NCBI GenBank assembly: GCA_021325515.1
Contig: JAJPHC010000031.1
Location: 1 to 64,000 of the forward strand
DNA length: 64,000 nt
Reading direction: 5' to 3'
Origin: Acidobacteriota bacterium
Lineage (GTDB): Bacteria; Acidobacteriota; Thermoanaerobaculia; Gp7-AA8
The translations under genes were made by a program, and so were the position numbers. The notes under the pieces are model-generated. The model saw only the letters and a list, made by a program, of their open reading frames with translations. It had not been told where the DNA came from and ran no database searches. Shown here piece by piece: positions 2,129 through 54,875 of the stretch (the stretch's first letter is position 1; every line of letters starts with the position of its first letter).

Positions 2129-2986
2129 ATGTCTCAAGCGGCCTTCAATCCCGCGGCCGAGCAGGAAAAACTCGACCTGGAGATGGTGGAGATTCATCTT
2201 CTCACCGAGGGGATCTACCGCCACTACGGATTCGATTTTCGAGACTACTCCCTCCCGTCGATGCGCCGCCGCATCTGGAAGCGCGTGTACGCGGAAGGGC
2301 TGAGCACGATCTCCGCGCTGCAGGAGAAAGTGCTCCACGATTCGGGTTGCATGGAGCGGCTGCTGCTCGACCTCTCGATCAACACGACCGCGATGTTTCG
2401 CGATCCGACCTTCTATCTCGCGTTCCGCAACAAAGTCGTCCCGATCCTCCGCACGTATCCCTTCGTCCGCATCTGGCACGCCGGCTGTTCGACGGGCGAA
2501 GAGGTCTGGTCGATGGCGATGCTGCTGACCGAGGAAGGGATCTACAACCGCTGCCGCATCTACGCGACCGATATCAACGAAGCGGTCCTGCAGAAGGCCA
2601 AGGATGGGATTTTTCCGATCGCATCGATGCAGGAGAACACGAGCAACTACATCAGCGCGGGCGGCAAGGACACGTTCAGCGAGTACTACACCGCGCGTTA
2701 CGACTACGCGATCTTCCGGCCGTCGCTGCGCGAGAACATCGTCTTCGCGCAGCACAACCTCGTCACCGACGCGTCGTTCAACCAGTTCAACGTCATCTTC
2801 TGCCGCAACGTGCTCATCTATTTCAACAACGCGCTGCAGGAGCGCGTGCAGCAGCTCTTCCTCAACAGCCTCGACAACTTCGGCATCCTCGGCCTCGGCA
2901 GGAAGGAGTCGATCCGCTTCACGTCCGTCGCCGACTCGTATGAAGAGATCGACGCGGAAGAGCGTCTGTACCGGAGGGTGCGATGA
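2129..2986 (+). CDS. cheR: CheR-type protein-glutamate methyltransferase
   Basis: SAM-dependent methyltransferase that normally methylates glutamates on chemoreceptors. The 285-residue protein has the all-alpha N-terminal CheR domain (about 15-95, with the LSINTTAMFRDP segment) and the catalytic domain with SAM loop GCSTGEE (119-125), ATDIN (146-150) and FCRNVLIYF (224-232). The ATG at 2129 is preferred over an upstream TTG that would overlap modA. It is followed 19 bp later by cheB and then a hybrid kinase, but no methyl-accepting receptor, CheW or CheA is in the window. Its target is therefore unknown; it may act in a CheBR-type sensory pathway rather than in flagellar taxis. Confidence 0.88.
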   Translation: MSQAAFNPAAEQEKLDLEMVEIHLLTEGIYRHYGFDFRDYSLPSMRRRIWKRVYAEGLSTISALQEKVLHDSGCMERLLLDLSINTTAMFRDPTFYLAFRNKVVPILRTYPFVRIWHAGCSTGEEVWSMAMLLTEEGIYNRCRIYATDINEAVLQKAKDGIFPIASMQENTSNYISAGGKDTFSEYYTARYDYAIFRPSLRENIVFAQHNLVTDASFNQFNVIFCRNVLIYFNNALQERVQQLFLNSLDNFGILGLGRKESIRFTSVADSYEEIDAEERLYRRVR

Positions 2987-3005
2987 GACCTGACGAGAGG
3001 GGGGC

Positions 3006-3581
3006 ATGCGGCAGATAGGCATCATCGTGATCGGCACGTCGCTGGGAGGCATGCACGCGCTCTCGGTTCTGCTCGGCGCGCTGCCGCCCGATTTCGATCC
3101 GCCGATTGCAGCCGTGCAGCATCGCTACCGATTTTCGAATGAGAGTCTGCCCGCGTATCTGCGGACGAAGTCGAAGCTGCCGGTCGTCGATGTCGATGAC
3201 AAGCTGTTCATCCGTCCGCGCCATGTCTATCTCGCGCCGGCGGACTATCACCTGCTGGTCGAGCGCGGATCGTTCGATCTTTCCAAGGATCCGGCGGTGA
3301 AGTATTCGCGTCCGTCGATCGATGTGCTTTTCGAGTCGGCTGCGGATGCGTATCGCGCGCAGTGCGTCGGTGTGCTGCTCACCGGCTCGAACGACGATGG
3401 GGCGCAGGGTCTGGTGCGGATCAAGAAACAGGGAGGATTCGTGATCGTCGAGGATCCGGCATCGGCCGAGGCTCCGGAGATGCCGCAATCGGGAATCGAT
3501 ACAGCGCAAGTGGACCGGATCTTGCCTCTCGAACGCATCGGGCCCTATCTGGTCGAGCTTTGGCGACAGAGCCGCACATGA
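3006..3581 (+). CDS. cheB: CheB-type methylesterase, catalytic domain only
   Basis: Protein-glutamate methylesterase/amidase of 191 residues. The catalytic triad is visible: Ser12 in GTSLGG, His39 in AVQHR and Asp131 in LLTGSNDDGAQG. The N-terminal receiver domain that controls classical CheB by phosphorylation is absent, so activity must be controlled another way, perhaps through the downstream kinase that starts with a free receiver domain. The stop overlaps the next start (ATGA at 3578-3581), so synthesis of the two is probably coupled. Together with CheR it forms an opposing methylation/demethylation pair. Confidence 0.88.
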   Translation: MRQIGIIVIGTSLGGMHALSVLLGALPPDFDPPIAAVQHRYRFSNESLPAYLRTKSKLPVVDVDDKLFIRPRHVYLAPADYHLLVERGSFDLSKDPAVKYSRPSIDVLFESAADAYRAQCVGVLLTGSNDDGAQGLVRIKKQGGFVIVEDPASAEAPEMPQSGIDTAQVDRILPLERIGPYLVELWRQSRT

Positions 3582-5125
3582 CCTCCGACGGAATCGTCAA
3601 CATCCTGCTGGTCGACGACCAGCCAAACAACCTGCTTGCGCTGCAGTCGATCCTTGCTGACGAGGGGCGGCGGCTCATCATCGCGGAATCAGGACGCCAG
3701 GCACTCCGGCATCTGCTCGATACGGAGTTCGCCGTGATTCTGCTCGACGTGCAGATGCCCGGCCTCGACGGATTCGAGACCGCGTCCCTCATCCGCGAAC
3801 GCGAGCGCTCGCGCGACACGCCGATCATCTTTCTGACGGCGATGAGCCGCAGCGAGACGAATGTGTTCCGCGGCTACGAGCTCGGCGCCGTCGACTACAT
3901 CTTCAAGCCGATCCAGCAGGAGATCCTGCGCTCGAAGGTGAACGTCTTCGTCGATCTCTTCAGCAAGCGTGAAGCGATCAAGATGCAGGCGCAGGAGCTC
4001 GCGCGCCTGTCGCGGCAGAATCAACTGATTCTCAATGCCGTCGCGGAAGGAGTGTTCGGCGTCGACCAGGTCGGGCGGACGACGTTCGTCAATCCTGCCG
4101 CTGCAAGAATGATCGGACGGCGGATGGATGAAGTGCGCGGGCAGGACATTCACTCGCTCGTGCATCCGCCGCTGCCGCGCGTCGCGACGTGCAACGTCGA
4201 TGAATGCAGGTTCTACGCGGCGCTGCACCGGCAGGAGTCGCTGACCGAAGGCGAAGATACGTTCTTCCGCGCTGACGGCACGAGTTTCCCCGTCGAGTTC
4301 TCGGCGTCGCAGATGCGCGACGCGGAACGCGAGCCGCTGGGCTCCGTCGTGACGTTCCGCAACGTGACCGAGAAGCGGGAAGCGGCGCTCGCGGCAGAAG
4401 TGGAGCGGCGTTATCGCGAAGCCGAAGCGGCGAATCGCGCGAAAGACAATTTCCTCGCGACGCTGTCGCACGAGTTGCGCACGCCGATGACCTCCATCCT
4501 CGGCTGGGTGCAGTTCCTCCGCATCGGCGGCTACAACGAAGAGGAACTGGAAGAAGCGCTGCGCACGATCGAGACGAGTGCACGCCTGCAGGCGCGGCTC
4601 ATCGATGACATGCTCGACGTCTCGCGCATCGTGCTCGGCAAGTTCCAGGTCGAGATGCGGAGAATGCGCGCCGCGGATGTCGTCGAGGCTGCGCTGCGGA
4701 CCGCGCGTCCCGCGGCCGCGGAGTGCGAGCTGAAGCTGATCGCGAAGATCGAAGATGACGACGCGCAGATCGAAGCGGATGCGGTGCGACTGCAGCAGGT
4801 CATCGGGAACATCCTCTCCAACGCGATCAAGTTCTCACGCCAAGGCGGCGAGATCGAGTTGCGCGTGTTTCGCGAGGATGACCGGCTGCAGATCGCGGTG
4901 ACCGATAAAGGCGAAGGGATCGAGCCGGCGTTTCTTCCCTACGTGTTCGAGCGCCTCCGCCAGGGCAACGCCGCAACTCGCAGCGGCCTCGGGCTCGGCC
5001 TCGCGATCGCACGCCACATCGTCGAGCTGCATCACGGCGAGATTCGCGCCGAGAGCGAAGGCCCCGACAGAGGAACGCGAGTCACCGTGAGCCTGCCAAT
5101 CGTGCACGCGCCCGCAATGGTGTGA
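3578..5125 (+). CDS. Hybrid signalling protein: receiver-PAS-histidine kinase
   Basis: Protein of 515 residues, probably soluble, as no membrane segment is seen. Domains in order: receiver (about 8-125) with phospho-acceptor Asp in ILLDVQMPG near 57; PAS (about 145-265) with an ETLTEGED/FRNVTEKRE tail; HisKA with LSHELRTPM near 297; HATPase_c with N-box NILSNAIKFS near 412, DKGEGI and GLGLGLAI. Having the receiver first is typical of kinases modulated by an upstream phosphorelay. Start chosen at the ATG overlapping the cheB stop. A chemotaxis-like module with CheR and CheB, lacking a receptor, is inferred from gene order. No output regulator is adjacent; its partner must be elsewhere. Confidence 0.87.
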   Translation: MTSDGIVNILLVDDQPNNLLALQSILADEGRRLIIAESGRQALRHLLDTEFAVILLDVQMPGLDGFETASLIRERERSRDTPIIFLTAMSRSETNVFRGYELGAVDYIFKPIQQEILRSKVNVFVDLFSKREAIKMQAQELARLSRQNQLILNAVAEGVFGVDQVGRTTFVNPAAARMIGRRMDEVRGQDIHSLVHPPLPRVATCNVDECRFYAALHRQESLTEGEDTFFRADGTSFPVEFSASQMRDAEREPLGSVVTFRNVTEKREAALAAEVERRYREAEAANRAKDNFLATLSHELRTPMTSILGWVQFLRIGGYNEEELEEALRTIETSARLQARLIDDMLDVSRIVLGKFQVEMRRMRAADVVEAALRTARPAAAECELKLIAKIEDDDAQIEADAVRLQQVIGNILSNAIKFSRQGGEIELRVFREDDRLQIAVTDKGEGIEPAFLPYVFERLRQGNAATRSGLGLGLAIARHIVELHHGEIRAESEGPDRGTRVTVSLPIVHAPAMV

Positions 5126-5227
5126 TGGATGGGACTATGGGACCTATGGGACCTATGGGACCTATAGGCGGAAACGGGTATCCACCTATAGGTCCCATAG
5201 GTCCCATAGGTCCCATCGTCCCATCCA
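5126..5227. repeat. Inverted array of the 9-mer GGGACCTAT, copy 1
   Basis: Two 43-nt arms (5126-5168 and 5185-5227) are reverse complements with a single mismatch and enclose a 16-nt loop. Each arm holds about three and a half tandem GGGACCTAT units ending in CCTATAGG. The element fills the whole gap between two convergent genes: it begins one base after the hybrid kinase stop and ends one base before the glycosidase stop. RNA from either side would form a very long hairpin, which may act as a two-way terminator or 3'-end stabiliser. A near-identical second copy is at 17719-17821. Confidence 0.93.
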
Positions 5228-6673
5228 CTATCGCGATGCTCTTCGCCGCGGGGGCTCCACTCGCACGAACAGCGGGTTTGCTTCGCTGGGCGCGAGTGCG
5301 CTCGCGTTCATGCTGGTCTGATTGCCGTACATGTCGGTCGCGGTGACGTTGCCTTTGACCGTCGACGGGACACCGCTCCAGAGAACGTAGACGTCTGATC
5401 CGCGAACGGTGAACTTGTACTGGCCGCTCGCGATTTTCGTCGCCGCGCTGAATCCGCCGAGCTCCGCCTCCACGAGTCGATTCACGTAGTAGGGGAGATA
5501 CGTGCGGCCATCGGGAGTCGTGAACGATGCGGCGTCGGGAAAGAATCGCGAGACGCCGCCGGCGAGTCCGGCCGCGTCAAAGCGGATGAACCATGCGCCT
5601 GCCTGCGCTTCCGTCATGCCGGCGAAATTGCCGGCAGTGCCGAGTTGTACGCCGTACTCGGTCACCCACACCGGTTTCGTGGGACCGAGAAGCTCGCGCG
5701 CGCGCCGGATCTGCGTTTCGAAGTTGTCGATGCTGCCGAAGCCTGCGGATTTTCCGTCGTTGTAGTGGATGGCGATCACGTCGATGTACTGCGCGCCGCC
5801 GAGGGCGGCGTAGTCGCGCCAGAAGGTCGTGCCGGGGAGGTTGTCGCTTTCGCGCCAGAGCGGAATGCCGGCGCCTCCGTTGAGGACCTTGCAGTTGGGA
5901 CACGACTGATGAATGAGCTCGTACGAGGTCTTCATCAAGGTCATGAACGCGGCGGCGTCATTGCGGAACAGCCCGCAATGATCGCCTTCCGGCTCGTTGT
6001 GAATCTGCCAGAAGAGGACAGGAGTCGTGAGGCCGGGCATGTCGTTGATGCCATCGCCGTCGTAGCGCTCGACGATGTCGGCGAGGAACGCGGAGTACTC
6101 GGCGAGATCCTTGTAGCGGTCCATGCGCCGGTCGAAGGTGAGATAGAAGAAGTCTTCGTTGAGCAGCCGCTGGCACTGCTCGTCCGTGGTGGGCCCGTAG
6201 CCTGCGGCGATGAGCTCCCAGCCTGCGTAGGGCATGACGGTGCCGACATAACGGCCGCCTGCGTTCTGCACGGCGGTGATCACTGCGTCGAGCGCCTCGT
6301 GTCTGAACGTGCCGCGCGAGACTTCGAGCATGCCCCAGGGAACGTTCTGCACGTCGCGAAACCAGGGGAGATCGCTTGCGATGAGCGGCGGCAGATACGA
6401 CGAGCCGCGTTGCGCGAGCATTTGCCTTGCCGATGCGAGAGCAGCGGAATCGTTGTAGAACGCGGCCGGCCCTTTCGTGTGAATGACATCGAGCGCGGCG
6501 GCGCCAACGAATGCGGTGTTGATCGCGCCGAGGGCGCCGAAATGCGCATCGTCGGGAGCGAGAGGAGGGATGGAGCGCAGCCATGCGGCCGCCTTCGCGG
6601 CTTCCGTCGTATCGGCGGCGCGGAGTGGAAGCGCGAAGACTAGAAGGAGGAGCGCGAGCCTCTTCGGAGTCAT
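5228..6673 (-). CDS. Secreted TIM-barrel glycoside hydrolase (clan GH-A-like)
   Basis: Protein of about 481 residues with a signal peptide (cleavage near LPLRA/ADTT). The two expected clan GH-A glutamates are visible: acid/base in FWQIHNEPEGDH and nucleophile in VWVTEYGVQ. A short C-terminal beta domain (about 400-470, with VYVLWSG) resembles those following GH39-like barrels. The family and substrate cannot be fixed from sequence alone. The ATG at 6673 overlaps the stop of the upstream TetR gene (ATGA), giving an operon of membrane protein, TetR and glycosidase. The stop lies directly against the inverted GGGACCTAT array. Confidence 0.7.
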   Translation of the reverse strand: MTPKRLALLLLVFALPLRAADTTEAAKAAAWLRSIPPLAPDDAHFGALGAINTAFVGAAALDVIHTKGPAAFYNDSAALASARQMLAQRGSSYLPPLIASDLPWFRDVQNVPWGMLEVSRGTFRHEALDAVITAVQNAGGRYVGTVMPYAGWELIAAGYGPTTDEQCQRLLNEDFFYLTFDRRMDRYKDLAEYSAFLADIVERYDGDGINDMPGLTTPVLFWQIHNEPEGDHCGLFRNDAAAFMTLMKTSYELIHQSCPNCKVLNGGAGIPLWRESDNLPGTTFWRDYAALGGAQYIDVIAIHYNDGKSAGFGSIDNFETQIRRARELLGPTKPVWVTEYGVQLGTAGNFAGMTEAQAGAWFIRFDAAGLAGGVSRFFPDAASFTTPDGRTYLPYYVNRLVEAELGGFSAATKIASGQYKFTVRGSDVYVLWSGVPSTVKGNVTATDMYGNQTSMNASALAPSEANPLFVRVEPPRRRASR

Positions 6674-11458: not shown

Positions 11459-13036
11459 ATGAAGCCGCTTCCCGGAAGCCATAAGGAGCCGGCGGACAAC
11501 GCGCGGCCGGCGGGCGATGTCGATCCCGAGCACGTCGTCAGCGTGACCGTGATCCTTCGCCCGAAGGAGAGTCTCGACCTCGATGCGCAGAGAGGGCGTC
11601 TGACGCGGCAGCAGTTCGCGGAGATGCATGGCGCGGATTCGGGCGACGTGGCGCGTGTCGAAGAGTGGGCCGCCTCGCATCATCTCAGCGTTGCAGAAGT
11701 GAATCTCGGTGCGCGCTCGGTCGTTTTGCGCGGCCGTGCCGCGGATCTGCAGCAGGCGTTCGGCGTCGAGTTGAAGTTGTACGAGACCGCGAAGCAGGAG
11801 CTCTTTCGCGGCCGCAGCGGTCCGGTGATGATCCCCGAGGAATTGGAAGGGATCATCGAGTCGGTGTTCGGCCTCGATGACCGGCCGGTTGCGAAGCCGC
11901 ATCTGCGCCGCGTTGCCGAACCGAAGCTGCTGGTTCGCCGGCAGGTGGCGGGACGTGTCCACAAGTCGCTCAGCGTCCGCGAGGTCGCATCGATGTATCG
12001 CTTCCCGAAGAAGCTCGATGGCCGGGGGCAGTGCATTGCGATCATCGAGCTTGGAGGCGGATATCGGAAGAGCGACATCGACGCCTATTGCAAGTCGATC
12101 GGCATCGCGCCGCCGGCGATCACCGCGGTCGGTGTCGGCGATTCGCGGAATCATCCGGGACGCGACGAGGCATCGGATGGCGAAGTCACGCTCGATATCG
12201 AAGTCGCTCTTGCGGTCGCGCCGAAGGCGAAGATCGTCGTCTACTTCACATCGAATACGAATGCCGGCTTTCTCAACGCGGTCAATGCGGCCATTCATGA
12301 TGATGTCCGCAATCCGTCGATCGTCTCGATCAGTTGGGGCGGCGCGGAGCCGACGTGGACGGATGCCTCGCGCCGCAGCTTCGATGCCGCGTTTCAGGCC
12401 GCGGCGTCGATGGGCGTGACCGTGCTGGCAGCGGCGGGCGACGACGGCTCATCCGACGGAGTCGAGGATGGCAGGCCGCACGTCGATTTTCCGGCGTCGA
12501 GCCCGCATGTGCTTGCGTGCGGCGGGACGCGGCTCACTGCGAGGTCGGAGACCGTCTGGAACAACGGGCCGAAGGGCGAGGGCGCGGGAGGGGGAGGCGT
12601 CAGCGATTACTTCGCACGGCCGGCGTATCAGTCGAGGGTCCGCGTGCCGAAGTCGCCGAAAGGGATCGACGGTCGAGGTGTGCCCGATGTGTGCGGCAAT
12701 GCGGATCCGATGACGGGCTACCGGGTGATCTTCGAAGGAAAGCCGGTGGTGATCGGAGGGACGAGCGCGGTGGCGCCGCTGCTCGCCGGTCTGGTCGCGC
12801 TGCTGAATCAGGCGCGAAAGAGGAAGCGGCTGCCGACGCTCGGATTCATCAATCCCGACCTCTACAAGCGCCGCGACATCTGCCGCGAGGTGACGCGCAA
12901 GAACAACGACTACACCGGCAAGCTCGGCGTCTACAACGCCGGCCGTGGCTGGAACCCCTGCGCCGGCCTCGGCAGCGTCCTCGCGCACAAATGGTTAAGT
13001 TGGTTTTCGGGGGTCACACCTGGAAAATCAACTTAA
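11459..13036 (+). CDS. S53-family (sedolisin/kumamolisin) serine-carboxyl peptidase
   Basis: A 525-residue proenzyme. The N-terminal 170 residues form the pro-kumamolisin activation domain (VSVTVILRPKES to KPHLRR). The catalytic domain shows the Glu242-x-x-x-Asp246 pair (EVTLDIE), the oxyanion Asp in AAAGDDGSSDG (about 325-335) and the nucleophile Ser436 in GGTSAVAPL; a late Asp/Gly-rich region is consistent with the calcium site. No signal peptide is seen, which is common for bacterial members. The natural protein probably ended near GSVLAHKW. The final residues (LSWFSGVTPGKST) and the stop come from the 94-bp palindrome that begins at 12994. Confidence 0.9.
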   Translation: MKPLPGSHKEPADNARPAGDVDPEHVVSVTVILRPKESLDLDAQRGRLTRQQFAEMHGADSGDVARVEEWAASHHLSVAEVNLGARSVVLRGRAADLQQAFGVELKLYETAKQELFRGRSGPVMIPEELEGIIESVFGLDDRPVAKPHLRRVAEPKLLVRRQVAGRVHKSLSVREVASMYRFPKKLDGRGQCIAIIELGGGYRKSDIDAYCKSIGIAPPAITAVGVGDSRNHPGRDEASDGEVTLDIEVALAVAPKAKIVVYFTSNTNAGFLNAVNAAIHDDVRNPSIVSISWGGAEPTWTDASRRSFDAAFQAAASMGVTVLAAAGDDGSSDGVEDGRPHVDFPASSPHVLACGGTRLTARSETVWNNGPKGEGAGGGGVSDYFARPAYQSRVRVPKSPKGIDGRGVPDVCGNADPMTGYRVIFEGKPVVIGGTSAVAPLLAGLVALLNQARKRKRLPTLGFINPDLYKRRDICREVTRKNNDYTGKLGVYNAGRGWNPCAGLGSVLAHKWLSWFSGVTPGKST

Positions 13037-13087
13037 CGAGCTCGTTAAGTTGATTTTCCAGGTGTGACCCCCGAAAACCAACTTAAC
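12994..13087. repeat. Perfect 94-bp palindrome (head-to-head repeat dimer)
   Basis: Left arm 12994-13040 and right arm 13041-13087 are exact reverse complements with no spacer. Each 47-nt arm is itself an imperfect hairpin: GTTAAGTTGGTTTTC, a GGGGGTCACACCTG centre, and GAAAATCAACTTAAC with one mismatch. This is the layout of a REP/BIME dimer. The palindrome contains the stop codons of both convergent genes (TAA at 13034-13036, and TAA read leftward at 13085-13083). Confidence 0.95.
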
Positions 13088-14071: not shown

Positions 14072-14842
14072 ATGCGCAGAGCCTGGCTGGTACTTTTTCT
14101 CGTCCTCGCTCACTCTGCGACAGCCACTCCTGCTGCGGAACCCTTCCGCGTCATCGCGAACATCTACTCCATCGGCGTCTCCGATGCGACCGTCTTTCTG
14201 ATCGCGACGCCGAAAGGGCTCGTGCTGCTGAATACCGGTGCCGCGGGTGAAGAGGCGAAGATCCGCGCCAACATCAAGAAGCTCGGATTCGACCTCGGAG
14301 ATGTGAAGATCATCCTCGTGTCGCAGGCTGACGCCGCGCACGTCGGCAATCTCTATTCATTCCGCCGCGAGACCGGAGCTCGCCTCATGGTGTCGGACGC
14401 CGATGCCCGGCTGCTGATCCATCCTGTCGAGAAGTTTCCGGCGCCGGTGATCGATCAGACGATCGCGGACGGCGATCACGTGGCGATCGGCGGCCTGATC
14501 TTCACGGCTCACGTGACGCCCGGCTCGACGCCCGGCTGCACGACATGGACGACGACGGTCCGCTGGGAGCGGAAGCCGTTCGCCGTCGTCTTCGCATGCG
14601 ATCCAACGCTTCCCGCCGCGCTGAAACTCGGCGAGGACTCACGGGCAACTTACCGGCATACGTTCGAGGTCTTTCGCACGATGCAGCCCGATGTGTTTCT
14701 CGCCGCGCGCGGAAGTCTCTTCGATTTCGAGGGGAAGGCCGCGAAGCGCACGGAGAAGGGAACGAATCCATTCGTCGACCGCGACGGATGGAAGAAGTTC
14801 GTCGACGAAACGGAAGCACGGTTCAACGCGTCGCAGAAGTAG
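14072..14842 (+). CDS. Secreted subclass B3 metallo-beta-lactamase-fold protein lacking zinc ligands
   Basis: A 256-residue protein with a signal peptide (LVLFLVLAHSATA). Order of elements follows subclass B3 MBL proteins: FRVIANIYSIGVSDATVFLI, LLNTGA, VGNLYSFRRETGARLMVS, FTAHVTPGSTPGCTTWT. The zinc motif H-x-H-x-D-H is replaced by S-Q-A-D-A-A-H, the next His (TPGHTPG) is Ser, and the last (PHPGASNW-like) is AARGSLF. A dinuclear zinc site therefore cannot form. It may be a pseudoenzyme with a binding role. The reading frame is intact, so it is not a decaying pseudogene. It is followed on the same strand by the diguanylate cyclase, 32 bp away. Confidence 0.75.
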   Translation: MRRAWLVLFLVLAHSATATPAAEPFRVIANIYSIGVSDATVFLIATPKGLVLLNTGAAGEEAKIRANIKKLGFDLGDVKIILVSQADAAHVGNLYSFRRETGARLMVSDADARLLIHPVEKFPAPVIDQTIADGDHVAIGGLIFTAHVTPGSTPGCTTWTTTVRWERKPFAVVFACDPTLPAALKLGEDSRATYRHTFEVFRTMQPDVFLAARGSLFDFEGKAAKRTEKGTNPFVDRDGWKKFVDETEARFNASQK

Positions 14843-14874
14843 CTGTCATCCTTGCGTTACCATCGGGACATCCA

Positions 14875-17718
14875 ATGCGGGTCCGCCTCCTGGTGCTGGT
14901 CACGATTTTCCTTCTCGCGGCATCCGTCCATCCGCGCGAGCGAAGCTTTCGGCTGATCACCTTCTATTACACGGGGGAGCACAGCGGCGCAGGAACGCAG
15001 AACTTCGACGTCATTCAGGATGACCGCGGGCTGATCTACGTCGGCAATCTCGCCGGCGTGCTCGAGTACGACGGCGTCCGCTGGCGCGTCATCTCGCTGC
15101 CGCATGAAGCACCTGCGCTCCGGCTCAAGATCGTCAAGCCGGGCGTGATCGCCGTCGGCTCCGCGCCGGAGTTCGGCTATCTCGAGCGCGATGCGACAGG
15201 GACGATGCAGTACGTGTCGCTCGTGAAGCAGGTACCGAAAGACGCCGGCGACCTCGAGCAGATCGTACAACTCGATGTGCACGACGGCGTTGCGATCTAC
15301 TCGTTCAGCTCCGGCGTCCTCCTGCGCTGGGATGGGAAGAGTCTGACCAGAATCGGCGAGCCCGATCCTTCGCGCACGACGCTTGCCGTCGGCAACGGCG
15401 ACGTCATCACGTTGAAGGATCTCCGGACGATCCGCGGCAATGAGCTGGTGCCGATTCCGAACACGAGCTTCTTCGGCGGCAAGCGCGTTCGCCACGTGCT
15501 TCCGCTGGCGGATGGCAAGTTGCTGGTCTGGGTTTCGCGCGAAGGGCTCTTTCTGTTCGACGGATCATCGATCACGCCTTTCGCTCCACAGCTCTCGCAG
15601 CAGATCAGGCGCGATGCGGTCGCGGACATGATTCCGCTGACCGGCGGCAGAATCGCGGTGGTCACCCGCAGGCAGGGCATTCAGATCGTGCGGCAGGATG
15701 GCAGCGTCGAAGAAGCGATCGACGCCGGCACAGGACTTCCCGACAGCGACATCAATCACGGATTCGTCGATGCCGATGGAGCGCTCTGGCTCGCGATGGA
15801 CAACGGGCTCTCTCGCGTCGATGTCTCGTCGCCGTTTTCCTTGATCGATACCCGCGGCGGACTTCGAGGCAGTGTCGAGTCGCTCCTGCGCTTCAAGGGC
15901 GTGCTGTACGCCGGCACGACCAGCGGCCTCTATCGCATTACGACGACTCCCGAAGGGAAGCTCGCGGAGCAGATCGGAGCGGAGCAGCGCCTGACGGGGG
16001 GCTGGTCGCTCGTGTCGGTTGGCAACGACATCCTCTGCGGCGCCAATGACGCCGTTTACGTCGTGCACGACGGCACCTCGGTCGAGCGCCTCGAGGCGAC
16101 CGACTCGACGACGCCGTACGCCATGGTGGTGTCCAGCCACGATCCGAATCTCGTCTACGCCGGAACGGATCGCGGACTCCTCATGCTGCGGCGAACGGAG
16201 AACGGTTGGACGAGCAGCGGACTTCTTCCCGACTCGCCTCCGATGATCCGGACGATCACCGAAGAGGATGATGGCTCGCTGTGGCTCGGGACGTCGTTCA
16301 ACGGAGTCTCCCACGCGACGTTCCGTCCGAAACCGCAGTTCAAGCAGTATGGAAAAGATGCGGTTTACCCTGTTCATCTCGCGGGCCGGCTCGTCTTCCT
16401 CGTCGATTCGAAGCGCGTCTGCACGCTCGATGCGCGCGGACGGTTCACGATGGATCCGATTCTCGGCTCGATCGGCGAAGGCGATGAGATCAGCGCGATC
16501 GCCGAGGATCGCGAGAAGCGCATATGGGCTTCGTCGCGCAGCACGGGAGTGGGCGTTCCTTCGGCCGGGGGGAAGTATCGATTCGTCCCGAAGGCGCTCG
16601 CTGCGATCCCCGGTACCTCGGTCGACGTCATTCTTCCCGAGGAGGATGGCGTCATCTGGTTCGGCAGCGAGCGCGGCCTGGTGCGCTTCGATTCGCATTC
16701 GCAGGACTCCGTCGCCGCCGCACCGCGCGAGCCGCTTCTGCGCGGCGTGACGCTCGAAGGGAAGCCGGTGGAAATGCCGCGCAATGTTCCCTTCGGGCGC
16801 GCGCGTCTCCGCTTCGATGTCTCAGCCGCCTCCTACGATCCCGGCACGATGTATCAGTACCGGCTCGACCCTGTCGATGAGTCGTGGGGACCATGGACCG
16901 ACGAGCCGTTCACGGAGTTCCGAAATCTCTGGGAAGGCGACTACAGGCTGCTGGTGCGCACGAAGAACATTCGCGGCGCGGTGAGCAGCGTCGTGAAAGT
17001 GCCGTTCCATGTTTCGCCGCCGTGGTATCGCACGCCTCTCGCATGGATCGCCTGGCTCGTGATCGCGATTGCAGGAATCGGAATCCTGTTGCGGCTGCGC
17101 ACGCGAGCGCTCCGGCGCCGCGCGCGTATGCTGGAGAAGGAAGTCGCGGAGCGCACGCACGAACTGCAGGATGCAGTCGAGCGGCTGCGCATCGCGAACG
17201 TGAGACTGGAAGAGCTGTCGTTCGATGATCCTCTGACGGGGATCGCGAACCGGCGCCAGTTCGACGAGACGCTGCGCGCCGAATGGAGCCGCGCACGCCG
17301 CGCGCAAACGCCTCTCGCGCTGATCTTCATCGACATCGACTGGTTCAAGGCGCTCAACGACTCGCGCGGGCATCAGGTCGGCGATCAGTATCTGCGCGCG
17401 GTGGCCGACTATCTGAGCTCGAGCGCGCAGCGGAGCGGAGATCTCGTCTCGCGGTATGGAGGAGAGGAGTTCGCCCTCGTGTTGCCGAACACGGAGCTCG
17501 CCGCCGCCGCGCAGTTCGCAGAACGGCTGCGGAACGGAATCGAAGAGCTGTCGCTGCGCCACGATGCCGCCCCCGGCGGCCACCTCACAGCCAGCTTCGG
17601 TGTGGTGTCCGTGATCCCCGACGGCGACTGGACGCCAGCGGATGCGGTCGCTGCCGCAGATCGCGCGCTGTACATGGCGAAAGCCGAGGGGCGGAACAGG
17701 GTGGAGGTGGCGGCTTGA
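14875..17718 (+). CDS. Periplasmic beta-propeller sensor diguanylate cyclase
   Basis: A 947-residue inner-membrane protein that should make cyclic di-GMP from GTP. Signal peptide (LLVLVTIFLLAASVHP), then two propeller-like halves of Reg_prop repeats (about 35-630, e.g. DDRGLIYVGNLAGVLEYDG and EEDGVIWFGSERGLVRFD), a Y_Y_Y domain (about 640-712), one membrane helix (721-740), a short coiled coil (REEVAERTHEL-like region) and GGDEF (about 780-945). Active-site GGEEF is at 862-866. An intact inhibitory site RSGD is at 853-856, exactly five residues upstream. This is the layout of hybrid-two-component-like sensors with a cyclase output. The stop codon abuts the second GGGACCTAT array. Confidence 0.9.
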   Translation: MRVRLLVLVTIFLLAASVHPRERSFRLITFYYTGEHSGAGTQNFDVIQDDRGLIYVGNLAGVLEYDGVRWRVISLPHEAPALRLKIVKPGVIAVGSAPEFGYLERDATGTMQYVSLVKQVPKDAGDLEQIVQLDVHDGVAIYSFSSGVLLRWDGKSLTRIGEPDPSRTTLAVGNGDVITLKDLRTIRGNELVPIPNTSFFGGKRVRHVLPLADGKLLVWVSREGLFLFDGSSITPFAPQLSQQIRRDAVADMIPLTGGRIAVVTRRQGIQIVRQDGSVEEAIDAGTGLPDSDINHGFVDADGALWLAMDNGLSRVDVSSPFSLIDTRGGLRGSVESLLRFKGVLYAGTTSGLYRITTTPEGKLAEQIGAEQRLTGGWSLVSVGNDILCGANDAVYVVHDGTSVERLEATDSTTPYAMVVSSHDPNLVYAGTDRGLLMLRRTENGWTSSGLLPDSPPMIRTITEEDDGSLWLGTSFNGVSHATFRPKPQFKQYGKDAVYPVHLAGRLVFLVDSKRVCTLDARGRFTMDPILGSIGEGDEISAIAEDREKRIWASSRSTGVGVPSAGGKYRFVPKALAAIPGTSVDVILPEEDGVIWFGSERGLVRFDSHSQDSVAAAPREPLLRGVTLEGKPVEMPRNVPFGRARLRFDVSAASYDPGTMYQYRLDPVDESWGPWTDEPFTEFRNLWEGDYRLLVRTKNIRGAVSSVVKVPFHVSPPWYRTPLAWIAWLVIAIAGIGILLRLRTRALRRRARMLEKEVAERTHELQDAVERLRIANVRLEELSFDDPLTGIANRRQFDETLRAEWSRARRAQTPLALIFIDIDWFKALNDSRGHQVGDQYLRAVADYLSSSAQRSGDLVSRYGGEEFALVLPNTELAAAAQFAERLRNGIEELSLRHDAAPGGHLTASFGVVSVIPDGDWTPADAVAAADRALYMAKAEGRNRVEVAA

Positions 17719-17821
17719 TGGGACTATGGGACCTATGGGACCTATGGGACCTATAGGAAGAGACCGAAGAACGTTCCGCCCATAGGTCCTATAGGTCCTA
17801 TAGGTCCCATCCGTCCCATCC
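17719..17821. repeat. Inverted array of the 9-mer GGGACCTAT, copy 2
   Basis: Left arm 17719-17757 and right arm about 17779-17821 are reverse complements with a few mismatches (CCTATAGG variants) around a loop of about 21 nt. The left arm repeats TGGGACTAT-GGGACCTAT-GGGACCTAT as in copy 1 at 5126-5227. It starts directly after the TGA of the diguanylate cyclase. The following gene is in the same direction, so a hairpin here would separate two plus-strand genes. Confidence 0.92.
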
Positions 17822-17895
17822 TCCCTCCGGAATTTGTCCCCTCTTTTGCGCAGTTCCGCTAAATAACTTTTATCGTCCCAAGGAGACCCATCTTG

Positions 17896-27336: not shown

Positions 27337-27426
27337 GTGTAGGACAGGCGCCCTCGCCTGTCGTCTCATCGGACAGGCGGGGGCGCCTGTCCTACACGAA
27401 GACAGGCGGGGGCGCCTGTCCTACAC
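27337..27426. repeat. GACAGGCG/CGCCTGTC hairpin repeat, copy 1
   Basis: GTGTAGGACAGGCGCCC is followed by two tandem inverse copies (GGACAGGCGGGGGCGCCTGTCCTACAC-type units, split here by GAA). It occupies the gap between the L,D-transpeptidase stop and the M16 peptidase stop, and the TAG stop of the M16 gene (27423-27421) lies inside the last unit. The same core recurs at 35876-35936. Confidence 0.85.
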
Positions 27427-28686
27427 GGCGTCTCTCAACATCTCTGTCGTGATCGAAGGCGTCTTCACGTTTCCGATCACGGTCAGCGAGAGCGACTCGG
27501 GATCGACGACCGTGTTCGCGACGCTGAGGATGTCCTCGAGCGTGACGGCGTCGATCTGCTGGATGATCTCATCCGGGCTGAACTGCTTGCCGAAGTAGTA
27601 CTCCTGGCGCGCGATGCCGCTCATGCGGCTGATCGTCGACTCGAGCGACAGGAGGATCGATCCCTTGAGATGCAGCTTCGCCGAGGACAACTCCGCGGCG
27701 GTCGCACCATGGCGCTTGAATTCGCGCATTTCCTCGAGTGTGATGTTCAGCACGCGGCGGAGATTCTTCGGCACGCATGCGGCGTAGACCGCCTGATAGC
27801 CGCCGTGGAGGTATCCGTTGTGAAACGACGCGACGGAGTAGGCGAGGCCTTCCTTCTCGCGAATGCGCTGAAAGAGCCGCGATGACATCCCGCCGCCGAG
27901 AATCGTGTTGAACAGCGCGGCGGCGAAACGCTCCTTCATCTCCTGCGGGTAACCGCGCGAGCCGAGGCAGAGATGGACCTGCTCGAGCTCCTTCTTTTCC
28001 TTGAAGATGACGTGCTGCGACGGCTGGGGCGCGGTCCACGTGTTGCGAACCGGCGAGCGCGAGTCGACTGGAAACGTTTTCTCGAGGAAGGGGACGATCT
28101 GCTCCGCGCGCACATTTCCCGACGCGCAGAAGATGAGATTCGTCGGATGGAAGGTCTCCGCGTAGTGCGCTTCGATCTGCGGCCGCTGCAGCCGCATCAC
28201 CGTCTCCTCGGTTCCGAGGATGGGGCGGCCGAGCGGATGATCGCGCCAGAACGCCGTGACGAAGATTTCGTGCACCAGGTCATCGGGCGTGTCCTCGACC
28301 ATGTTGATCTCTTCGAGGATTACCCGCCGCTCCATCTCCAGATCTTCGTCGGTGAAGCGCGGCGAGGTGACGATGTCGGTCAGCAGATCGAGCGCGGTGC
28401 CGACCTGCTCGTCGAGGACGTGCGCGTAGAACGAGGTGTACTCCTTGCCGGTGAACGCGTCGACGTCGCCGCCGAGGATGTCGATCACCTGCGCGATCTC
28501 GGTGGTGTTGCGGTGTGCCGTTCCCTTGAACACGAGATGTTCGAGAAAGTGCGAGGCGCCGCCATGTTCGACGGACTCCACCGCCGAGCCGCTGCGCAGC
28601 GTATAACCGAGAGCCACCGACCGCACGTAGGGGAGCGTCTCGATGAGAATCGTCAGGCCGGAAGGAAGGGTAATGCGGTCGATCAT
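27421..28686 (-). CDS. M16-family zinc metallopeptidase
   Basis: A 421-residue protein of the pitrilysin/processing peptidase family. The inverted zinc motif HFLEH is at 46-50 (His46, Glu49, His50), with the third ligand Glu expected about 76 residues downstream in ILEEINMVEDTP. The second, inactive half contains the RIREKEGLAYSVASFHNGY segment typical of the family. No signal peptide, so probably cytoplasmic. Downstream of the pilus genes on the same strand, 48 bp after the last pseudopilin, though a functional link is not implied. The stop is inside a repeat element. Confidence 0.9.
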   Translation of the reverse strand: MIDRITLPSGLTILIETLPYVRSVALGYTLRSGSAVESVEHGGASHFLEHLVFKGTAHRNTTEIAQVIDILGGDVDAFTGKEYTSFYAHVLDEQVGTALDLLTDIVTSPRFTDEDLEMERRVILEEINMVEDTPDDLVHEIFVTAFWRDHPLGRPILGTEETVMRLQRPQIEAHYAETFHPTNLIFCASGNVRAEQIVPFLEKTFPVDSRSPVRNTWTAPQPSQHVIFKEKKELEQVHLCLGSRGYPQEMKERFAAALFNTILGGGMSSRLFQRIREKEGLAYSVASFHNGYLHGGYQAVYAACVPKNLRRVLNITLEEMREFKRHGATAAELSSAKLHLKGSILLSLESTISRMSGIARQEYYFGKQFSPDEIIQQIDAVTLEDILSVANTVVDPESLSLTVIGNVKTPSITTEMLRDAV

Positions 28687-29388: not shown

Positions 29389-29956
29389 TGTCGAGCGTCT
29401 TTCCCTTGGCCTTGCTCTTCACATCGATGATGCCGCCGCCGCCCTGATCGTTTGCCTTCTCCGCCTCGGTTGGCTCGGGCGCGGGATTGTCCTCGGAGCC
29501 GGGCTGATTCTGAACCGTGTCCCAGTCCGCGGTCTTCGTGATGGGATCGGTGGGGATCCTGCGGAGGTAATGCGGAACGAGATCCTTCAGATCGCTGGGA
29601 AACTTCTGCTTGTCGGCGTAGTAGTCGTCGATCGCCTTGCGCATCTCATGCAGATCAGCGCGCAACGCCGCATCCGCCGCCTTGTGCTGTGCGTTGCGCA
29701 CATTGGCCATCGCGATCCCCGCAAGAATCCCGATGATCGTGACGACGACGAGCAGTTCGATGAGAGTGAAGCCGCGGGATGAGAACGATGAACGATGAAC
29801 GGAAGGCAACGATGAACGATGAACGATGAACGATGAACGGGGAGCGCTCACCGTTTCCTGATCCTCATTCATCGGCGCCAGTTGGTTCATCATTCCTCGT
29901 TCCTCGTTCGTCATGAACATCGTTTCTCGCTCGTAGTCACCCAGTTCATCGTTCAT
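29366..29956 (-). CDS. GspG-like pilin with repeat-encoded leader
   Basis: A pseudopilin with cleavage site SSRG/FTLIELLVVVTIIGILAG and Glu5, then the GspG-like KFPSDLKDLVPHYLRRIPTDPITK segment. The open frame runs back to an ATG at 29956, giving about 62 residues before the cleavage site. Most of that is encoded by heptamer repeats (FIVHRSS-like). A TTG at 29809 would give a normal 13-residue leader (PSVHRSSFSSRG after the start). Neither start has a Shine-Dalgarno, so the true N-terminus is open. Middle gene of three pilin-like genes downstream of the secretin. Confidence 0.82.
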   Translation of the reverse strand: MNDELGDYERETMFMTNEERGMMNQLAPMNEDQETVSAPRSSFIVHRSSLPSVHRSSFSSRGFTLIELLVVVTIIGILAGIAMANVRNAQHKAADAALRADLHEMRKAIDDYYADKQKFPSDLKDLVPHYLRRIPTDPITKTADWDTVQNQPGSEDNPAPEPTEAEKANDQGGGGIIDVKSKAKGKTLDNVPYDQL

Positions 29957-30005
29957 CGTTCATCGTTCATCGTTTAGATCATCGTTGAACGTTCATCGTT
30001 ATCCG
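29781..30005. repeat. Inverted heptamer array, GATGAAC family
   Basis: The left arm (about 29781-29842) carries tandem GATGAAC units with a break. The right arm (about 29940-29998) carries the inverse GTTCATC units. Between lie degenerate copies (GTTCATCATTCCTCGTTCCTCGTTCGTC). The array lies over the 5' end and upstream region of the middle pilin gene and supplies its possible ATG at 29956. The unit resembles the GATGAGT heptamer of the array at 37598-37673. Confidence 0.85.
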
Positions 30006-37590: not shown

Positions 37591-37597
37591 AGTGTTT

Positions 37598-37673
37598 AGT
37601 GATGAGTGATGAGTGATGAGTGCTGAGTGGGTTATTGGGTTTGCTCAGCACTCGGTACTCATCACTCAGCACT
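37598..37673. repeat. Inverted heptamer array, AGTGATG/AGTGCTG family (small)
   Basis: Left arm 37598-37629 holds AGTGATG, AGTGATG, AGTGATG, AGTGCTG, AGTG. After a short loop (TTATTGGG) the right arm (about 37644-37673) carries the inverse units (CAGCACT, ACTCATC, ACTCAGC, ACT). It fills the 90-bp gap between pilC and pilB. Same unit family as the larger array at 54702-54875. Confidence 0.85.
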
Positions 37674-54089: not shown

Positions 54090-54187
54090 TGGCGGAGGCG
54101 CGTCGGAATCGAACCAACCCATCGACGCTTCCGCGCCGACGCAACGGTTTTGAAGACCGCGGGAGCCACCAGACCCCATTCGCCTCC
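54090..54187 (-). tRNA. selC: Selenocysteine tRNA (anticodon TCA)
   Basis: A complete 98-nt tRNA on the minus strand with extended acceptor (GGAGGCG/CGCCTCC), long D-arm (GGTCTGGTGGCTCC), anticodon stem GCGGT/ACCGT around CTTCAAA with anticodon TCA, a long extra arm (TTGCGTCGGCGCGGAAGCGTCGA), T-arm GGTTCGATTCC and encoded GCCA. These are the diagnostic features of bacterial tRNA-Sec. The host therefore likely makes selenoproteins; selA, selB and selD are outside the window. Confidence 0.96.
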
Positions 54188-54669: not shown

Positions 54670-54701
54670 TGCTCCTCCAAGGCGAGTAGTACCCAGAACA
54701 G

Positions 54702-54875
54702 AGTGTTGAGTGAAGAGTGACGAGTGACTAGTGACTAGTACCGAGTGCTGAGTACCGAGTACTGAGTGCTGAGTACCGAGTTGACTCGGCTCTGTACTCA
54801 GCACTCAGCACTCAGCACTAGTCACTCATCACTCGTCACTAGTCACTCGTCACTCCTCACTAGTCACTCGTCACT
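54702..54875. repeat. Inverted heptamer array, AGTGCTG/AGTGACT family (large)
   Basis: About eleven left units of the form AGTNNNG (AGTGTTG, AGTGACT, AGTACCG, AGTGCTG, AGTACTG) run 54702-54781, then a 13-nt loop, then about eleven inverse units (ACTCAGC, ACTAGTC, ACTCGTC, ACTCATC) to 54875. It fills the gap between two exbD genes. The total is 174 bp. Same unit family as the array at 37598-37673. Confidence 0.9.

Follow-up and report, generated by a model that had tools for sequence, protein, structure and literature searches.

Cyanobacterial STRRs are heptameric short tandem repeats that occur in intergenic DNA and are typically direct, and the REPs of E. coli slow 3'-to-5' exonucleases. More generally, REPs are dispersed palindromes, located mostly in intergenic DNA beside the 3' ends of flanking genes and mainly in unidirectional and convergent gaps, where they are plausibly transcribed (PMC3733652). 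Heptamer repeats of the word TAACTGA, reported from Beggiatoaceae, Cyanobacteria and Bacteroidetes, are direct and mostly situated just upstream of start codons (PMC4679880). For Geobacter metallireducens, the published account (PMC2700814) describes tandem 7-8-mer sites paired on opposite strands at variable distance and dispersed in one genome, which fall into classes 1-3 (units GTTGCTYN, TCTCCGTS and MTYCTGA; 16-48 sites per class) and are annotated as regulator binding sites.

The element considered here fills the gap between two convergent genes (Table 1) in the window, by which we mean the whole 64,000-nt stretch of DNA analysed. Its two arms, each of 43 nt, enclose a 16-nt loop and are complementary except at one position; the terminal base pair of the hairpin joins the two end bases of the gap, leaving 0 nt over. 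An initial reading of the letters without database searches (hereafter, the sequence-only reading) had proposed both the arm-and-loop structure, which pairing and folding confirm, and the filling of the gap, which holds to the base, given that the two stop codons bound 5126-5227 exactly and all 102 nt are used. The RNA fold is predicted at -92.5 kcal/mol, versus -38.4 for shuffles (z -16.6), and the DNA fold yields a z of -14.8. No Rfam match above the gathering score was found for this interval; the sub-threshold hits, mostly to microRNA precursors, are such as any long hairpin gives. At L227, compared for synteny with this locus, the gene that follows the glycosidase is not the kinase, and the comparison yields no empty site. 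The window contains the word GGGACCTAT 10 times, where 0.04 occurrences would be expected, and a second array copy has its first base in the stop codon of the gene at 14545-17718 (TGATGGGAC...), with the start of the downstream gene at 17893 or 17908. The window also carries a selenocysteine tRNA gene (54094-54187, minus strand).

Table 1 Features of the window discussed in the text
Feature	Position	Strand	Length	Details
Histidine kinase gene	3578..5125	+		Pfam REC-PAS-HisKA-HATPase; stop TGA abuts element
Gap between convergent stops	5126-5227		102 nt	Kinase stop TGA 5123-5125; glycosidase stop 5228-5230 (-)
5' arm, purine-rich strand	5126..5168	+		TGGATGGGAC-T-ATGGGACCT x3 -ATAGG
Apical loop	5169..5184		16 nt	CGGAAACGGGTATCCA
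3' arm	5185..5227	+		Reverse complement of 5' arm, one mismatch; last base adjoins glycosidase stop
Glycosyl-hydrolase-like gene	5228..6673	-		Weak Pfam match PF11790, E 2e-5; stop TAG abuts element
Second array copy	17718..17825	+		Arms 17720-17758 and 17787-17825
Tandem-heptamer-armed hairpins (GAGTGNY/AGTACYG, AGTGATG, GAACGAT)	54701-54875, 37591-37673, 29783-30000			

The genome (G000; 5.38 Mb, 63 contigs) was sampled in contiguous stretches amounting to 2.06 Mb, which contain 65 arrays, and extrapolation from this sample gives a whole-genome copy number of about 170. Fifty-three of the arrays are inverted, bearing out the earlier description of a repeated element that reverses in its middle. 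The possibility, raised in the same reading, that only two copies exist is not upheld: the double unit GGGACCTATGGGACCTAT is present 108 times exactly and 375 times as near matches, with 0 matches to a reversed-pattern control. Its fixed 9-mer stands as a repeat unit but not as nine fixed bases, as only the heptamer ATRGGAC is invariant and the last two positions of the unit vary, most often being CT or GG in this genome; the opening unit of an arm frequently has a spacing of 8 in place of 9. An exact-word literature search for the unit returned nothing.

The inverted arrays are highly uniform in polarity, the GGGAC arm coming first in 52 of 53 (52:1). In the element at 5126-5227, the loop together with the bases preceding it forms an apical motif, ATAGGCGGA, and this non-unit motif (ATRGGYGGA) is common to 30 of the 53 inverted elements of this genome, with an expectation of 0.0016 per element; furthermore, two elements on different contigs possess an identical 16-nt loop. 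Since the apical motif is not part of the repeat, its sharing indicates that the elements are related by descent. Within elements, same-rank unit variants mirror each other between the arms (base R p=2e-4, NN p=4e-4, against within-element shuffles), evidence that we weigh only moderately because the register was taken from the fold itself, which somewhat favours concordance. Mirrored units fit either the copying of one arm from the other or selection on pairing. Internal duplications that include the loop, with at least two loop copies, were observed in G000 at C40:238846-239063, C16:23066-23295 and from C30:60287 onward, and suggest template switching.

Placement was assessed against hexamer-model gene predictions, the model being trained on the sample, by which 32 arrays are co-directional, 17 convergent, 9 divergent and 6 inside a called gene. 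Where the flanking genes are co-directional, the array lies closer to the upstream stop than to the next start in 29 of 32 cases (median 8.5 versus 51 nt; p=2.6e-6), and the shift towards the stop persists with the 50 nt before the start placed out of bounds (p=0.004). Arrays are found in 17 of 112 convergent, 32 of 375 co-directional and 9 of 212 divergent gaps, and are commoner in convergent than in divergent gaps (p=0.001). The median leftover in convergent gaps (n=10) is 4.5 nt per side of the array, and the exact filling at 5126-5227 is the extreme case of a general habit. We regard it as nearly certain that the arrays share descent, are nearly all intergenic, and lie directly after stop codons. 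A few stop codons lie inside an array; the idea that the element is a routine donor of TGA was rejected, as the stops at arrays (22 TGA, 8 TAG, 2 TAA) resemble the usage of the genome.

A very stable hairpin placed directly behind stops, and serving both directions in convergent gaps, is what a terminator acting on either or both of the adjacent genes would look like. However, a U-tract is present at 0 of 57 array-bearing gene ends compared with 27 of 551 other ends under the same crude test, and 13 of the 32 co-directional arrays leave less than 40 nt before the next start, which is too little room for a promoter; on these two grounds the arrays are not an obligatory terminator. Moreover, at C61:161763 the stop is followed first by a distinct canonical U-tract hairpin (ten T) and only then by the array, and G009, a related genome, has arrays between genes whose G000 counterparts adjoin or overlap. 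We therefore regard termination as very improbable as the explanation for these elements.

The arrays resemble REPs in being palindromic, dispersed, intergenic and in high copy number, and in occupying 3' ends while being depleted in divergent gaps. Neither a GTAG nor a CGTC tag is present at 98 array ends, which start with GATGGGAC or a similar sequence and share no tag beyond it, and none of the 7 Y1_Tnp genes of this genome lies within approximately 1.5 kb of a GGGAC array. The missing tag and the lack of an array-flanked Y1 transposase rule out a RAYT-associated REP. Between closely spaced arrays, inspection by eye for a mobiliser gene revealed ordinary chromosomal genes only. Two of the 7 Y1_Tnp genes are flanked by other palindromes, one by GTTAAGTT and one by GTGTAGGACAGGCG. 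The GTGTAGGACAGGCG family, which possesses a GTAG-type tag and is represented in the window at 27337-27427, has copies flanking a Y1 transposase gene elsewhere in the genome (L158), with which it looks like a RAYT-REP pair. A GTTAAGTTGGTTTTC palindrome family, present in the window at 12994-13087, overlaps stop codons and has copies on both sides of a second Y1 transposase gene (L157).

The RAYT-linked palindromes (two families in this genome) touch or overlap stop codons at least as closely as the arrays do, and this has consequences for how the placement is to be interpreted. The sequence-only reading had proposed testing whether copies sit at gene ends beyond chance, as they do (29 of 32; p=2.6e-6), and had treated the lack of such a preference as counting against a maintained element. 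The converse does not follow: RAYT-linked palindromes and published REPs are placed likewise, so that a preference for gene ends is not by itself evidence of maintained function and points to a REP-like way of life rather than to one function. Indeed, the same placement would be produced by a neutral or selfish passenger that spreads, survives behind stops as the least harmful place and has no role for the cell, an explanation that we consider possible, though on balance improbable, and that ranks close behind the one we prefer. Stop-hugging is equally expected of a harmless passenger. The passenger explanation also gains from the lack of a strand-specific pairing signal: among imperfect pairs in co-directional gaps, G-U relative to A-C shows no enrichment on the transcribed strand (GU:AC 24:19 sense, 34:12 antisense), and selection on RNA pairing is consequently not supported. 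Two observations run the other way, namely that arm pairing is kept despite changes in the units, although arm-to-arm copying achieves this without selection, and that convergent gaps are favoured over divergent ones, although avoidance of promoters predicts that too.

The distribution of the arrays over genomes is patchy, as befits a passenger. Searching the genome and its relatives for the word, as the sequence-only reading had proposed, recovered arrays in G000 and, among 60 relatives, only in G009 and G016 (both of genus g10), plus one match in G008; in the wider set, any such arrays are found in 11 of 297 Acidobacteriota genomes, of which G000 is by far the richest. The G008 locus L228 contains, at approximately 2930-3040, an inverted CGTCATCCTGAGC...GAGATCCTTCG repeat whose relatives (CTGAGCGAAGCGAAGGATC) are present in G000. 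In g10, too, the arrays are inverted and for the most part follow stop codons; the GGGAC arm leads in 20 of 21 cases (G009 and G016), and unit variants are mirrored between the arms (NN p=0.0016). Their units (GGGACGAAT, GGGACCAAT, GGGACCGAT and others) differ from those of G000, a divergence between genera that likewise suits a passenger, and the apical motif ATRGGYGGA is absent from the fetched g10 array loci. At L234 of G009 an array immediately follows the stop, while the orthologous junction in G000 is an empty 27-nt gap; at L236 an array is present in G009 and the orthologous genes of G000 overlap, the site being empty. We count these filled and empty sites in favour of dispersal. Only one orthologous junction has an array in both genera (L233 in G009, C51:112278 in G000), which independent insertion could explain.

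Beyond the phylum, an array 20-mer recurs in more than 80 stretches from a wide range of phyla (chiefly the PVC group, Hydrogenedentes and Prevotella), and ATGGGACCTATGGGACCTAT (L051-L133) is found in Verrucomicrobia, Lentisphaerae, Hydrogenedentes, Planctomycetes, Prevotella and others among the matches listed. Descent alone hardly accounts for finding one word in so many phyla, and this recurrence is one of the points that favour a binding array for a sequence-specific protein (a nucleoid protein, a gyrase-like protein or a global regulator), the arms presenting the site in opposite orientations as in the Geobacter proposal. The invariance of ATRGGAC, next to which two bases vary within arrays, fits this, and the Geobacter account provides a published precedent (PMC2700814). 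Nevertheless, outside this genome the word mostly forms direct arrays (68 of 85 among the matches listed, where gene calls are rough), from which it follows that the inverted build is not essential; in addition, a promoter regulator would not have its sites behind genes, and there is no candidate protein. Binding of this kind is in our view unlikely.

The nonamer is not alone in its architecture. At least six further unit families of like build exist in G000 (the 7-mers GAGTGAY, GAACGAT, AAATTGA, CAGAATT and GGGCGCG, and the 8-mer GCGGGCTC), and several such unrelated families in one genome are also in keeping with passengers. Contrary to the initial impression, inverted arrays of short repeats are therefore not unusual in this genome, and Geobacter metallireducens offers a published precedent (PMC2700814). 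Among short-tandem-repeat hairpins, which cover seven unrelated words including the nonamer, 90 of 93 lead with the purine-rich arm, compared with 22:19 for the remaining hairpins; as elements within a family are not independent, the count by family is 7 of 7. At the G009 gene end corresponding to the G000 array at C61:161763 (protein 81% identical), a heptamer hairpin with AGTGCTG units is present instead, and an AGTGCTG heptamer hairpin also occupies the G009 end corresponding to C51:184486, where the protein is 37% identical and orthology uncertain. The sequence GGTGGAACC, seen at the apex of one nonamer and one heptamer hairpin at matching gene ends, was considered as a shared apex and set aside, since the heptamer hairpins do not carry it consistently. 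One build and one polarity in several unrelated words, the intergenic location, the substitution of one word by another behind corresponding genes of related genera, and recurrence across phyla raise the prospect of a general class of dispersed hairpins with arms of 7-9-nt tandem words, made and moved by one machinery, which we put forward as a doubtful but defensible generalisation.

The explanation that we prefer, and to which we give about an even chance, is that the arrays are a dispersed REP-like hairpin lacking a RAYT partner, which persists at the first tolerated place behind a stop and caps the mRNA 3' end when transcribed. Location behind a stop codon is where insertion does least harm. 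Under this explanation, arrays would spread by a copying process, either mobile or conversion-like, their unit number would change through slippage, and the likeness of the arms would be kept by hairpin-templated copying of one arm from the other. Once transcribed, a stem of approximately 40 bp behind the stop may protect the upstream mRNA as a 3' cap, holding back 3'-to-5' exonucleases, and between convergent genes it might hinder read-through RNA. The putative capping role, argued by analogy with REPs, falls slightly short of even probability in our estimation. Should capping be real, arrays would determine how strongly the genes of an operon are expressed relative to one another, in a phylum that has been little studied; as passengers, they would represent a mobile palindrome without a known mobiliser. 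In either case, a kind of repeat that tends to be overlooked becomes a defined and testable family, by virtue of a build shared among several unrelated words, a single rule of polarity, and filled and empty sites.

Among known systems, REP/BIME with RAYT (PMC3733652) is nearest in behaviour, in that the arrays share its dispersed, intergenic, 3'-end placement; however, a REP has a GTAG/CGTC tag and a 20-40-bp body, whereas the arrays are without a tag, carry 9-nt tandem units in their arms and adjoin none of the 7 Y1_Tnp genes. The TAACTGA repeats (PMC4679880) are similarly built of one short word in intergenic arrays and are patchy across distant phyla, yet they are direct and start-side where the arrays here are inverted and stop-side. 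Nearest in architecture are the Geobacter metallireducens pairs (PMC2700814), with tandem short words on opposite strands; the arrays here differ in their 9-nt period with a heptamer core, in their unit consensus, and in a preference for gene ends, none being reported in the available part of that account. Cyanobacterial STRRs share with the arrays the character of intergenic short tandem repeats, but are heptamers and typically direct.
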